Origin: BD2-11 clade cluster bacterium bin43
GTDB lineage: Bacteria > Gemmatimonadota > Gemmatimonadetes > Longimicrobiales > Gaopeijiaceae
Direction: 5' to 3'
NCBI GenBank assembly: GCA_002238605.1
Contig: MPMR01000001.1
Location: forward strand, 62,001-126,000
Length of the DNA: 64,000 nucleotides
Positions 7,246 through 42,060 of this stretch are shown in pieces. Below the pieces are notes generated by a model. It saw nothing but the letters and a program-made list of their open reading frames with translations, searched no databases and had not been told where the DNA came from. Made by a program: the position numbers and the translations under genes. How positions within the stretch are numbered: the stretch's first letter is position 1; each line of letters begins with the position of its first letter.

Positions 7246-8094
7246 TCAAGCGAGAACGCCTTCCCTTCCCGACCCGTCTCGAATCGACTCTCCCTTCGCG
7301 GCCCGAATCGCCAACCCGAGCGACCACAGAACATTCTCCAGCATGAACCCTGCGAGCGGCTCCATCCGGCCCACATCAGCATTCTGAAGCGCCCCGATGT
7401 AGCGGTCCCGATCGGCACTCTTGATCACCATGGGCGGCAGGCCGGATCTCAGCAGGACGTAGTTGGTGAGCAGCCGCGCGGTGCGACCGTTGCCATCATC
7501 GAACGGGTGAATCCGCAGGAAGCTCCAGTGCGATTCGGCAAGAAACAGAGGTAACCGAGACTCACTCAACGCCGAATCGCCCAAATCGAGCCGAAAGTCA
7601 CTGATCCACGCCTGCATGAGCGCCGGCGTCTCCTCCGGCTCCGCGAATCGATGTAGTTCTCCGGTCGCAGTTCGCACGTGGTTCGGCTGCGTCTTGTACT
7701 CTCCCGGAACGATCCGCTTCCGGGTCTGCTGCCCGTCCGGAGTCTGCGCGATGTGCCAGAATGGCTCTTTCAGAAGAATCTTGTTCAGATCCCGGATGTC
7801 GCCCTCACCCAGAACGCGCTCGGCACTCGCCAGATTGCGGGTGTGGTCGACCGAAGCATCGTGTGCCTTCATCTCCTCGTAGTGCCGCATTGGATGCCCG
7901 CCAGCCGTTCGGCCATGGATGAGCAGCAACTCGGTCTCGTAGTAGGAAAGCGTATTCCCCTCGATGTGGTTGCTGTTGTAGTTCCACTCGAGGCGCAGCT
8001 TCCGCCACAGCCGCTCGTCATCTTCCTCCCGCATGGTTGCCCGGCGTTCCCGCCATTCCGAGATCGCCGCCGCGAGTGCCTCCGAGTCCATCAT
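7246..8094 (-). CDS. Fic-domain protein, class II (N-terminal inhibitory helix)
   Basis: This protein of about 282 residues carries the full Fic catalytic motif HPFDDGNGRTAR, which transfers AMP (or another phosphate-containing group) from a nucleotide to a target hydroxyl. An N-terminal SNHIEGN matches the (S/T)xxxE(G/N) inhibitory motif, placing it in class II, where the glutamate blocks productive ATP binding in the resting state. Upstream of Fic the sequence YYETELLLIHG matches the usual Fic_N region. A GGGGAGG ribosome site sits directly before two adjacent ATG codons (8094 and 8091), so either could start translation. It follows the DUF4143 ATPase by 109 bp on the same strand. The target is unknown. 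Confidence 0.9.
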   Translation of the reverse strand: MMDSEALAAAISEWRERRATMREEDDERLWRKLRLEWNYNSNHIEGNTLSYYETELLLIHGRTAGGHPMRHYEEMKAHDASVDHTRNLASAERVLGEGDIRDLNKILLKEPFWHIAQTPDGQQTRKRIVPGEYKTQPNHVRTATGELHRFAEPEETPALMQAWISDFRLDLGDSALSESRLPLFLAESHWSFLRIHPFDDGNGRTARLLTNYVLLRSGLPPMVIKSADRDRYIGALQNADVGRMEPLAGFMLENVLWSLGLAIRAAKGESIRDGSGREGVLA

Positions 8095-8203
8095 CCTCCC
8101 CTGCATGTTCCGCTGGCACCTGCCCGCCAGGCTCGTAGACCGCAGACCGTAAGGTACCGCGATTTGCCTACCTTGCCGCCCGGGTTCCACGCCCTGCACG
8201 CCC

Positions 8204-9481
8204 TCACGGCCCCAGCGCCCCCACCGGAATCACGGCCACGCCATCGGGCCGCTGGTAGCCATATCCGCTGCCGACGATGACGGCGAGTGCTGCCGGTTCA
8301 CCGCTACGGGTCGTGTCCACACGATTCCCGAACTTGAGAAGCGCGGCTGCCGCTTCGTCGATTCGTCCCTGGCCCAGCTTCACTTCGAACGCGGCCCATC
8401 GGCCGGGACCGGCATCCACGATCGCGTCCACTTCGAGGCCCGTGTTGTCACGATAGTGGTATACGCGCCCGCCCATCGCCTGAGCGTACACGCGCAGGTC
8501 TCGAACGACCATGGACTCGAAGAGAAAACCGAACCACGGGATGTCCTTCATGAGGTTCCCGGGTCCGGCATTCAGCGCCGCCGTCGCGAGGGATGGATCC
8601 GTGAAGTGTCGTTTCGGGGAGCGTCTGAGGCGTGATCGGGACCGAAGATGAGGGGCCCACGGTGGCTGCTGCTCAACCACCATGAGGCGTTCGAGCGCTG
8701 CGAGGTAGGAACGGGCAGTCTCCTTCGTGAGCGAATGGTCGGTGCCGCCTGCATCTCTCGCCATGGTCGCGACCGACGTGCAGGTAGCCGTGTTTCGCGC
8801 CAGCGTCTGGAGGAACCGGCCAACTCTCGCCGGATCCCTCACGATCCCGTCCACCCGCCTGATGTCCACCCGGCGGATTTCGTCCAGGTAGTCGCGGTTG
8901 GCCAGCAATGCGCCTTCCTCGGCCTTCCGGCGAAAATGCCCGGGCCAGCCACCGACGCAAATCAGCGTGGCCAAGTCCCGAAGGGGCAGGTCGTGAACCA
9001 GGCTGGGTACGGGCTCTCCGTCGAGGATTCGCTTCAAGGAGACCTGTCCCGTTGCGCGCCCGAGCTCGAACAGCGACATGGGACGGAGCCGAAGGCGGCT
9101 CATCCGGCCGGCTCCCGTATGCCGCGGGATGTCATCGGGTGGAACGGCTGAGCCGGTGAGGATGAAGTGGCCCAAGCCCGGGCGATCATCGACGGCGCGT
9201 CGCACGTAGTTCCAGATGTCGGGCTCGGCCTGCCACTCATCGATCAATCGCGGAGTCGCTCCTTCCAGGAGCAACCTCGGGTCGACAGCCATGGTCTGGG
9301 GCACGGCCGGATCGGCATCCATGAGCACTTCGCTCGCCGCCGCCTGCCGGGCCGTCGTGGTCTTGCCGCAGACCCTCGGCCCCTCGATCACGACAGCTCC
9401 CGCTGCCGCGAGCCTTTCGGTCAATTCACGGTCAGCAATGCGGGGACGATAGCCTGACACGGATGTGGGATCGGGTGTCAT
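8204..9481 (-). CDS. AAA-family ATPase with DUF4143-type C-terminal domain
   Basis: About 425 residues. A Walker A motif (GPRVCGKT, residues 34-41) is followed by a Walker B-like LIDEWQ and the sensor segment ILTGSAV; the second half has the MSLFELG signature and a C-terminal nuclease-fold-like block (YHYRDNTGLEVDAIVD, then AFEVKLG) typical of DUF4143 ATPases (COG1373). That block resembles a PD-(D/E)xK core, with D, E and K present. The ATG at 9481 is preferred to a TTG 36 nt upstream because it sits 7 nt after a -10-like CATACT, so the mRNA may be leaderless. Cellular role in this family is poorly known. A decayed paralogue lies at 29171-30323. Confidence 0.85.
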   Translation of the reverse strand: MTPDPTSVSGYRPRIADRELTERLAAAGAVVIEGPRVCGKTTTARQAAASEVLMDADPAVPQTMAVDPRLLLEGATPRLIDEWQAEPDIWNYVRRAVDDRPGLGHFILTGSAVPPDDIPRHTGAGRMSRLRLRPMSLFELGRATGQVSLKRILDGEPVPSLVHDLPLRDLATLICVGGWPGHFRRKAEEGALLANRDYLDEIRRVDIRRVDGIVRDPARVGRFLQTLARNTATCTSVATMARDAGGTDHSLTKETARSYLAALERLMVVEQQPPWAPHLRSRSRLRRSPKRHFTDPSLATAALNAGPGNLMKDIPWFGFLFESMVVRDLRVYAQAMGGRVYHYRDNTGLEVDAIVDAGPGRWAAFEVKLGQGRIDEAAAALLKFGNRVDTTRSGEPAALAVIVGSGYGYQRPDGVAVIPVGALGP

Positions 9482-9488
9482 GTAGGGG

Positions 9489-9517
9489 AGTATGGCAGAT
9501 CGCGCGTGGTTTTGCAA
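9489..9517 (-). promoter_or_regulatory. promoter for the DUF4143 ATPase, built into the TTGCAA array
   Basis: Read on the minus strand, TTGCAA (9517-9512) is followed after exactly 17 bp by CATACT (9494-9489), then 7 nt and the ATG at 9481. The -35 hexamer is the core of the gene-proximal repeat of the 23-bp array, so anything binding the repeats would compete with RNA polymerase. Confidence 0.5.
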
Positions 9518-9610
9518 CGATATCAGCCGTCTGTTTGCAACCTATAAGACGGTCTGTTTGCAACGCACTTGATCGTGCGTTCGCAACTTCATCAGCCATG
9601 GATTTGCAAT
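9511..9610. repeat. five TTTGCAAC boxes phased at exactly 23 bp
   Basis: TTTGCAAC begins at 9511, 9534 and 9557, a one-mismatch copy (TTCGCAAC) at 9580 and another (TTTGCAAT) at 9603: five boxes, every step exactly 23 bp. The core TTGCAA is a perfect palindrome. The spacers between boxes are only partly similar (ATATCAGCCGTCTG versus TATAAGACGGTCTG, for example), so it is the phasing that is conserved. It lies immediately upstream of the DUF4143 ATPase and overlaps its promoter, which suggests a cooperative operator. Confidence 0.8.
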
Positions 9611-29170: not shown

Positions 29171-30323
29171 ATGATTCCAAGAGATCTGGCCCCGGAACTC
29201 CTCAGGGCCGCCGGCCAGGCGCCTTCCGTCACGCTCACCGGTCCGCGGCAGGGCGGAAAGACGACTCTTCCCCGAGCATCCCTATCGCACTCTGGAGGCC
29301 CCCGACGACCGGCGGTTCGCGACAGAGGATCCCCGGGCATTCCTGGCTCAGTTTCCGGAAGGCGCGATCATTGACGAAGTTCAGCGTGTCCCGGATCTGC
29401 TCTCCTACCTGCAAGGCATCATCGACGAGAACCCGGCACCCGGACGCTGGATTCTCACCGGTTCCCAGAACCTCTCGCTGCTGGCGTCGGTCAGCCAGTC
29501 GCTGGCCGGACGAACCGAAGTGCTGCATCTGTTGCCGCTGACCTGGAACGAGATCCGACGCTTCGATCCGCATCCCGGTTGCGTCGAAGAGGCGCTGTTC
29601 TCGGGAGGCTATCCGCGCATCTTCGACCGGCGGCTCGACCCGGTCCGCTGGTTGCGTTCCTACGTCGCCACCTACATCGAGCGCGATGTCCGCACCATCA
29701 GCAACGTCGGGGATCTGACGACCTTTCAGCGCTTCGTCGAATTGTGCTCCGGGCGCACCGGCCAGTTGCTCAACTACTCCGGCCTGGCCGGCGACTGCGG
29801 AATCTCCCAACCCACCGCCAAGGCGTGGATCAGCATCCTGGAGACAAGCTTCATCGCCTTCCGCCTGCCCGCCTTCCACGCCAACCTGCGAAAGCGGCTC
29901 GTCAAGATGCCGAAGCTGTACTTCTACGACACCGGCCTCGCCTGCTGGTTGATGGGCATCCGGGAATCCGGACAGCTTCGATCGCATCCGCTGCGGGGGG
30001 CCATTTTCGAGACCTGGGTGGTTTCGGAGATCGTCAAGCAACGTATAAACCGGGGCGAGACCCGGGGGCTTTCCTTCTATCGTGACCGAAGCGGCGCCGA
30101 GGTCGACCTGGTCATCGACCAGCCTTCCGGACGCACCCTGCTGGAGGCCAAGTCCACCGGAACGCCGTCCGCGAGCCTGCTCCGTGGGGCCGAGCGGGTG
30201 CACGGCCATTTCGGCCGTGGGACAGCGCCCGATGTGGCCGTCGTATACGGAGGCGAAGACCTTCAGGAGCGCACGAGCGGACGACTGATACCGTGGCGGA
30301 TGCTGGGGAACACAACCTGGTGA
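29171..30323 (+). pseudogene. frameshifted DUF4143-type AAA ATPase
   Basis: The N-terminus in one frame reads MIPRDLAPELLRAAG and the Walker A TGPRQGGKTTL. Right after the P-loop, near 29264-29270, the coherent protein switches frame: it resumes as LFPEHPYRTLEAPDDRRF, then the Walker B-like IIDEVQ, the sensor WILTGSQNLSLLAS and the DUF4143 part (YVATYIERDVRTI; FYRDRSGAEVDLVID; LLEAKS) up to a stop at 30323. Compared with relatives, roughly three or four residues between KTT and LFPEH are missing, so a small deletion is the likely cause. Everything after the lesion is intact, so decay is recent, or there is an assembly error. About 384 codons in total. Confidence 0.75.
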
Positions 30324-40425: not shown

Positions 40426-42060
40426 ATGCGAGCAATCCGAGTCCTGGCCCTGGTCCTGATGACGGCAGGAGCTCCCTTGTGGGTGGCGACCTGCGGCGGT
40501 GACGGCGGTACGGAACCGACCCCTACCACCCCTCCCACGCCTCCCCCACCCCCGCCACCCGCGAATCGCGCGCCGACCGCCACGGGCAGCATAGATGCCC
40601 AGACGGTCGTCGCCGGGGAGAGCGTTTCGGTCAATGTGGCCGGAACCTTCACCGACCCGGACGGCAACACGCTGTCCTTCTCGGCGGCGAGCTCCGACGA
40701 CGCGGTCGCCACAGCCTCGGTTTCGGGGAGCAACGTGACCATCAACGGCGTCGCGGCAGGAACCGCGACCGTGACCGTGACGGCAAGCGACCCGGGCGGA
40801 CTGTCCGCGACCCAGAGCATCAGCGTGACGGTCGAAGCCGTCAACCAGGCGCCCGTGGGAGAGGGCATCATCGACGACCAGGGTATGGTCGTGGGCGATG
40901 AGGTTACCGTGGACGTGACCGACAACTTCAGCGACCCGGACGACGACGAACTGACCTACGCCGCCACCAGCTCGGATACGGCCGTGGCGACCGTCGCGAC
41001 CGAGGGTGCGATGGTGACCATCACGGCCGTGGCCGCGGGAAGCGCCACCGTAACCGTGACCGCCACCGATCCCGGCGAGCTCTCGGCCAGCCAGGAGTTC
41101 GGCGTGACCGTCGAGGAATCCAACGAGGCACCCGTGGCGGAAGGCGCCATCGACGACGTGACCGTGGTCGCGGGCAGCGAGGCGACGGTGGACGTGACGG
41201 ACAACTTCAGCGATCCGGACGGTGACGACCTGACCTACGCCGCGACCAGCTCGGATGAGGCGGTGGCAACCGTCTCCACCGAGGGTGCCGTGGTGACCGT
41301 CATGGGCATCGCGCCGGGCGACGCCACCGTGACCGTGACCGCCTCGGACGCGGGCATGCTTTCGGCCAGCCTGGAGTTCGGCGTGACCGTCACGCCGCCC
41401 CCGGTGCCACCCGAGATCACCGACACGATCCCGACCCACGACATGATCGTGGACAGCATGGTGGTGCTCGACGTGTCGTCGTACTTCGAGGACGCCGAGC
41501 TGACCTACATGGTGACGACCTCGGACGAGATGGTGGCGTCGGCGTCCGTGGACGGCAGCACGGTGACCACGACGGGCACGGGCGCCGTCGAGGACAGCAT
41601 CAGCGTGGCGATGCTGGCGGTGACAGCTACGAACGAGGACGGGTTGTCGGTCACGCAGGACTCGATCATGGTGCGAGTGCACCAGGAGGCGTATGCGAGT
41701 TTGGCGGGGATTACGGTGACGGAGGACGGGGTTCTCATGGCGGAACTCGTCCCGGGCTCGCCCATCGCGCTTGGCTTTTGCCTCCAAGTCAACAACTTCC
41801 CTGTCGGCGGTCAGGCCTTCACCGTGATCTGGTCGGAGTGGCAGCGTGCGGTGGGCGGTGGATGGGTCGTCGCGCAAGACAACAACAAGGCCCACCGAGG
41901 CGGTACAACCCACGACCCGAGTAATCCAGGGGGCTCGGTCTGCCCGATCAACATCGACGAGGACGGGTTCCCGCCGGGCACATACCGCCTGGTCGGCCAT
42001 GTGGTGCTTGGAGAGGATTCCGGGTACTACGCGACCGACACCTTCGAGAAGCAGCCGTAG
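40426..42060 (+). CDS. Ig-like/cadherin-type repeat lipoprotein
   Basis: 544 residues, probably surface-anchored. The signal peptide ends with a loose lipobox (WVATC) followed by GGDGG and a Pro/Thr linker. Three closely similar repeats of about 85 residues follow, each of the form APv.eg.Id...vv.Ge.vtVdVtdnFsDPDgDeLtYaAtSSD..VAtv, ending TVTVTASDpGgLSA. This is the dystroglycan/cadherin-like bacterial Ig pattern with calcium-type DPDGD motifs. A fourth degenerate unit (YFEDAELTYMVTTSDEMVA) and a unique C-terminal domain with two cysteines (FCLQVN; SVCPIN) complete it. A role in adhesion or as scaffold is inferred. Confidence 0.8.
   Translation: MRAIRVLALVLMTAGAPLWVATCGGDGGTEPTPTTPPTPPPPPPPANRAPTATGSIDAQTVVAGESVSVNVAGTFTDPDGNTLSFSAASSDDAVATASVSGSNVTINGVAAGTATVTVTASDPGGLSATQSISVTVEAVNQAPVGEGIIDDQGMVVGDEVTVDVTDNFSDPDDDELTYAATSSDTAVATVATEGAMVTITAVAAGSATVTVTATDPGELSASQEFGVTVEESNEAPVAEGAIDDVTVVAGSEATVDVTDNFSDPDGDDLTYAATSSDEAVATVSTEGAVVTVMGIAPGDATVTVTASDAGMLSASLEFGVTVTPPPVPPEITDTIPTHDMIVDSMVVLDVSSYFEDAELTYMVTTSDEMVASASVDGSTVTTTGTGAVEDSISVAMLAVTATNEDGLSVTQDSIMVRVHQEAYASLAGITVTEDGVLMAELVPGSPIALGFCLQVNNFPVGGQAFTVIWSEWQRAVGGGWVVAQDNNKAHRGGTTHDPSNPGGSVCPINIDEDGFPPGTYRLVGHVVLGEDSGYYATDTFEKQP

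Follow-up and report, generated by a model that had tools for sequence, protein, structure and literature searches.

Evenly spaced boxes upstream of DUF4143 ATPase genes are probable operators of the genes that they precede

Why a short box should recur at an unvarying step of 23 bp directly in front of an ATPase gene, and which protein reads it, is the question raised by one locus of the window, the 64,000-nucleotide stretch of DNA analysed here. The gene codes for a 425-aa protein that matches Pfam AAA_14 (E 2.5e-11) and DUF4143 (E 2.4e-35), both above the curated cut-offs, and the PADLOC model PDC-S01 (E 1.1e-66); by sequence it is classed as a member of PDC-S01, a candidate single-gene phage defence. 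Its start codon, ATG at 9481-9479 on the minus strand, is backed by conservation among orthologues, the stop lies at 8204, and the boxes sit ~30 to 130 bp upstream of the start. The features of the locus are:

7246-8199, minus strand: Fic gene (PADLOC match, PDC-S04/SoFic-like), adjoining the ATPase gene
8204-9481, minus strand: DUF4143 ATPase gene, 425 aa (AAA_14, predicted winged helix, DUF4143/PD-(D/E)XK-like), PADLOC PDC-S01
9489-9494, minus strand: -10-like CATACT, from the sequence; CATACT or CATGTT at the same spot in orthologues
9511-9518, minus strand: box 1 (gene-proximal), GTTGCAAA, including the -35-like TTGCAA; kept in orthologues
9534-9541, minus strand: box 2, GTTGCAAA; kept in orthologues
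9557-9564, minus strand: box 3, GTTGCAAA; kept in orthologues
9580-9587, minus strand: box 4, GTTGCGAA, one mismatch; from the sequence
9603-9610, minus strand: box 5, ATTGCAAA; from the sequence

A sequence-only reading of this DNA had listed five TTGCAA boxes starting at 9511, 9534, 9557, 9580 and 9603. On the plus strand we find TTGCAA at 9512, 9535, 9558 and 9604 and TCGCAA at 9581, so that four boxes are exact, the fourth carries one mismatch and every start had been placed one base too low, while the four steps of exactly 23 bp stand; in the direction of the gene the boxes run ATTGCAAA, GTTGCGAA and three copies of GTTGCAAA. The best five-box score, taken over periods of 10-40, is 34/35 in the 209-bp intergenic stretch, and none of 3,000 dinucleotide shuffles matched it (maximum 28, mean 24.1). 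Footprinting across three orthologues, from the window and two congeneric genomes, showed that the boxes are kept and the spacers between them have diverged. We conclude that the phased boxes are real. The spacing given for the gene-proximal box as a -35-like element also holds, with TTGCAA of box 1 (9517-9512) followed after 17 bp by CATACT (9494-9489) on the minus strand; the ATG comes 8 nt after CATACT, and the ATPase mRNA would thus be leaderless or nearly so. Same-face phasing was rejected, as a step of 23 bp makes ~2.19 turns, not an integral number, and rotates each box by ~70 degrees. The core is palindromic as described, but this is incidental, and a palindromic site was likewise set aside, as the boxes of most relatives are asymmetric.

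The host genome carries ~20 DUF4143 genes. Pairs of the form TTGCAA-N15..19-TTGCAA occur genome-wide at the window array and in one other place only, directly upstream of a DUF4143 gene that is ~71% identical to the window gene and is preceded by four boxes at 23 bp. Several other DUF4143 genes of the host have 23-bp arrays of other words, including CTGACGCT, TTTTCACC and ATCGACA; among the host paralogues the period is common and the box word is not. Across the three genomes checked, exact box pairs, the form of site that this count covers, were found at DUF4143 arrays only. The genus of the window has 4-22 DUF4143 domains per genome versus 0-3 in the other genera of the family, a strong lineage-specific expansion. 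Some of the host copies look damaged: one short frame of 315 aa (L023/L026, G000:C57:55612-55941) has no Walker A in frame and still has a clean four-box ATCGACA array at 23 bp, and a second DUF4143 domain match within the window (29679-30155, plus strand) lies in a 382-aa frame that lacks both a Walker A match and an array and may be a broken or truncated gene. The window also holds a 279-bp tandem repeat of 2.4 copies at 40735-41391.

Comparable arrays are present when the regions upstream of DUF4143 genes are scanned in related and unrelated genomes, the check that the sequence-only reading had called for. In related genomes the best period is 23 bp at 17 of 20 loci and 22 bp at one. Species genomes queried with a three-paralogue alignment yielded 80 loci that by record title belong to Gemmatimonadota, Spirochaetota, Bacteroidota, Rhodothermota, Pseudomonadota, Bacillota, Actinomycetota, Chloroflexota, Nitrospirota, Acidobacteriota and others. 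With 33 periods compared in the upstream scan, 23 bp was the best at 65 of 79 loci; 44 loci score at least 25/28 at 23 bp and at most one does so at any other period, and none of the 75 downstream control stretches reaches that score at 23 bp. When 183 distinct genes were sampled in all, 23 bp was best for 85 of 103 in the subfamily of the window, drawn from about ten phyla (counts that take in related genes and hence are not independent), for 12 of 13 in the next score band, and for seven of 16 in the band after that, with four more at 22 bp. Even allowing for this non-independence, chance is a poor explanation for a period that is so sharp and found in so many phyla. The upstream scan found no array for ~15% of the window subfamily and, among the 183 distinct genes, none for most members of the more distant DUF4143 subfamilies.

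At the 23-bp period the box word varies from gene to gene (TTGCAAA, TGCACAAT, TGTAAA, CAAATCACCCG and ACATTTTCCGG), and paralogues within one genome have different boxes at the same spacing. Arrays of 23 bp are also found on plasmids of Bacteroides ovatus, B. uniformis, Collinsella aerofaciens, Prosthecochloris aestuarii, Actinomyces oris, Lentilactobacillus hilgardii, Mycobacterium riyadhense and Thioclava; plasmids of Rhizobium, Rhodoferax, Sphingomonas, Chelativorans, Peteryoungia and Qingshengfaniella, whose proteins belong to another clade, have 22-bp arrays, some of them weak. No array was seen in the plasmid records of Allochromatium and Thermus, the latter with an insertion sequence just upstream of the gene. 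The period follows the protein clade, with 22 bp in a related clade: on the protein tree the 22/23-bp character changes three times, as against at least eight times (mean 9.8) with shuffled labels, and one genome carries both kinds of array, divided by protein clade. Three loci from Clostridia and Bacteroidota (L131, L146 and L152) have almost identical long boxes (GCCAAA..CGGAAGT) spaced at 23 bp, which could mean that the gene was transferred together with its array or that the boxes converged.

Arrays were called with a 9-bp core and mostly comprise 3-4 boxes, with up to seven; pairwise identity is 0.82-0.89 in the core, where the method itself selects for it, and weaker in the flanks. They are located within ~220 bp of the start codon. 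The minimal -10 pattern, TAnnnT, lies 14-22 bp past the centre of the last box in 53 cases versus 23 expected, in an interval picked after the histogram had been seen. Spirochaetota show TATACT-like hexamers at a nearly fixed distance after the last box, and in Bacteroidota TAnnTTTG often follows it. Because -10-like elements come just after the last box, the array is predicted to span the -35 region and the sequence upstream of it.

What kind of protein might read such boxes is suggested by an AlphaFold model of the window ATPase (mean pLDDT 90.9), which places an AAA domain at residues ~10-160, a helical part, a winged helix at 217-293 with its recognition helix at 253-265, and a PD-(D/E)XK-like domain at 314-420. 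The last of these is predicted to be alpha/beta, with strands at E350-356 and E362-368, and in 80 sequences E322, E350 and D352 are invariant and E366 and K368 nearly so; with these PD-(D/E)XK-type residues the domain is a putative nuclease. A sequence search found no significant match among solved structures. In a fold search with the model, the archaeal Walker ATPases 2qen and 2fna ranked highest (Z 14.2 and 13.2), followed by NB-ARC/CED-4 (Z ~11), and the model aligns with 2qen, 2fna, CED-4 and NLRs over residues 6-304. As modelled, the nucleotide-binding, helical and winged-helix domains follow one another in NB-ARC-like order, which would place the protein with the STAND ATPases; the C-terminal sensor of superhelical repeats is absent from the AlphaFold model, which ends in the alpha/beta nuclease-like domain.

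We compared the identity of protein segments with the similarity of boxes, correcting for overall identity, and the association peaks at residues 252-262 in all three overlapping data slices (r 0.17-0.34). The recognition helix plus wing ranks first of 388 shifted alignment positions in partial correlation with box similarity, and when relatives of less than 50% or less than 55% identity are searched for one with a similar box, the helix alone does better than the other segments, ranking first of 98. The wing is backed by the partial correlation and not by this choice of donor, and is not robust. Helices with SRNT(I/L)S pair with TGCACAAT and those with SRPT(I/V)Y with TGTAAA, and similar boxes recur across different phyla together with similar recognition helices. 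Box similarity thus appears to track the recognition helix modestly: the effect is small and correlative, and yet larger than that of any other segment.

The surroundings of the genes gave no sign of a conserved partner, with no family of neighbouring ORFs present at more than four of ~80 loci in an all-against-all comparison. The Fic gene beside the window ATPase is not part of a generally conserved pairing; a further instance is a Rhodoferax antarcticus plasmid (L242), where a Fic gene stands ahead of a DUF4143 gene, and Fic (PDC-S04/SoFic-like) and DUF4143 ATPase genes are both candidate single-gene defences. Carriage by phages was considered and set aside, only eight loci being found in the viral collection. 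The ATPase gene is patchily distributed, with some copies on plasmids and most of those found on chromosomes. Within the genus of the window, three genomes have the orthologue with its array, one (G001) has a plain empty site, one has a gene fragment and no array, and four (L226, L228, L229 and L230) have lost the ATPase and retain TTGCAA boxes; the congeneric assemblies are fragmented, and single cases of gain or loss may be assembly effects. Boxes can thus outlast the gene, perhaps merely where the losses are recent or where a paralogue reads them, and these four genomes are a natural setting in which to see whether boxes decay once their reader has gone. The pattern of gain and loss fits a defence or addiction gene.

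The array, its fixed pitch, its changing box, its promoter-proximal position and the link to the recognition helix were all computed directly, and no other sites or partners appeared in the cases checked. We consider it probable that each ATPase binds its own array and regulates its own promoter, with the array acting as the operator of the ATPase-coding gene. The ATPase is favoured as the reader because whether the period is 22 or 23 bp goes with the protein clade, also within a single genome, because no neighbour family recurs and exact pairs are confined to DUF4143 arrays in the three genomes, and because the box covaries with the recognition helix. The same lines of evidence (arrays elsewhere, a clade-linked period and recognition-helix covariation) speak for the earlier suggestion that the boxes are under selection for protein binding, with the ATPase as the likeliest ligand. 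Each PDC-S01 protein would read an asymmetric box of ~9-15 bp through the winged helix that lies between the AAA and PD-(D/E)XK-like domains, and several protomers or dimers would bind in a row, one per 22-23 bp, at a pitch set by how the proteins of a given clade pack on DNA. Binding may be cooperative and nucleotide-dependent. With the last box covering or abutting the -35 region, occupancy would control transcription of the gene, more likely negatively (autorepression) than positively, as the last box overlaps the site of RNA polymerase. Set against this reading are the small size of the covariation, the boxes that persist in four congeneric genomes after loss of the ATPase, and the lack of an array in ~15% of the subfamily and in many other DUF4143 subfamilies. 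We infer repression of the ATPase's own gene, perhaps with a wider role in defence.

An ATPase-bound array might instead serve mainly as a platform on which the nuclease is assembled or stored, either as a cis-encoded inactivating lock or as a reference site, with control of the promoter secondary. The pitch is stricter than plain repression requires, an AAA domain with a winged helix resembles the STAND proteins, which multimerise (PMC4381067), and the PD-(D/E)XK residues E322, D352, E366 and K368 are invariant or nearly so. However, the array stands at the promoter in most loci, a position that promoter control accounts for without extra assumptions, and we judge a platform of this kind rather unlikely. 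A more specific version, in which the array is an address plate where the gene's own STAND-like nuclease forms an ordered multimer at a fixed 22- or 23-bp pitch and is held in check until triggered, while co-evolution of box and helix insulates the copies within a genome, is put forward tentatively, as a possibility with the balance against it.

Binding and control by a host transcription factor or nucleoid protein would also place an array at the promoter, and the ATPase as ligand is, after all, something that we infer. A shared host regulator is nevertheless hard to reconcile with paralogues that differ in box and share one spacing within a single genome; arrays of both periods occur together in one genome, sorted by protein clade, box pairs lie nowhere else in the three genomes checked, and similar boxes in different phyla go with similar recognition helices, all of which makes a host factor very unlikely. 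Least credible is an array that merely rides along with the gene as part of a mobile or replication element, be it iteron-like, centromere-like or made of transposon-end repeats. The patchy gene, its presence on plasmids and the empty site within the genus would suit such an origin, but the arrays are one-sided direct repeats confined to the upstream side, no recombinase family recurs nearby and most copies are chromosomal. Two known repeat systems were also compared and rejected: CRISPR arrays have repeats of ~23 bp or more, unique spacers and cas genes, whereas here a conserved core of ~9 bp recurs in a 23-bp period with no recurrent neighbours, and plasmid iterons accompany an initiator gene at an origin, whereas here the encoded protein is a DUF4143 ATPase and the loci are mostly chromosomal.

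The operator that we favour has partial parallels among known systems. Iterons of plasmid initiators are short direct repeats spaced by about two helical turns and bound by an adjacently encoded protein, usually with autoregulation; DUF4143 arrays differ in having no initiator or origin, and in boxes that diversify from gene to gene at a fixed pitch. Toxin-antitoxin operators show that mobile stress or defence genes can repress their own promoters through locus-specific operators, but these consist of one or two palindromes, in contrast to the phased 3-7 direct repeats before a single ATPase-nuclease gene. The nearest functional analogue among STAND proteins is MalT, a multimerising protein that binds cooperatively to MalT boxes in promoters (PMC4381067). 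MalT contacts DNA through a separate domain and activates genes other than its own, whereas the DUF4143 ATPase has a predicted internal winged helix and no sensor repeat, and its sites are confined to its own gene in the cases checked.

PDC-S01, an ATPase fused to a PD-(D/E)XK domain, has been ranked the fourth most common defence across prokaryotes, validation pending (PMC12988326), and the single locus met most often in rumen genomes (PMC13356809); the passages on PDC-S01 in these two accounts make no mention of an upstream array, an operator or a DNA-binding winged helix. In the open-licence literature searched, no previous account of phased arrays for DUF4143 or PDC-S01 came to light, and the arrays are apparently a widespread and previously unreported cis-element of a very common uncharacterised gene. 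They represent a predicted ligand site for thousands of PDC-S01 proteins, and the recognition helix may offer a route to predicting box specificity. Functional clades can be told apart by the array period (23 bp, 22 bp and none), and the arrays together would form a natural set of matched protein-DNA pairs in which the specificity of a winged helix shifts while the geometry of assembly stays fixed.
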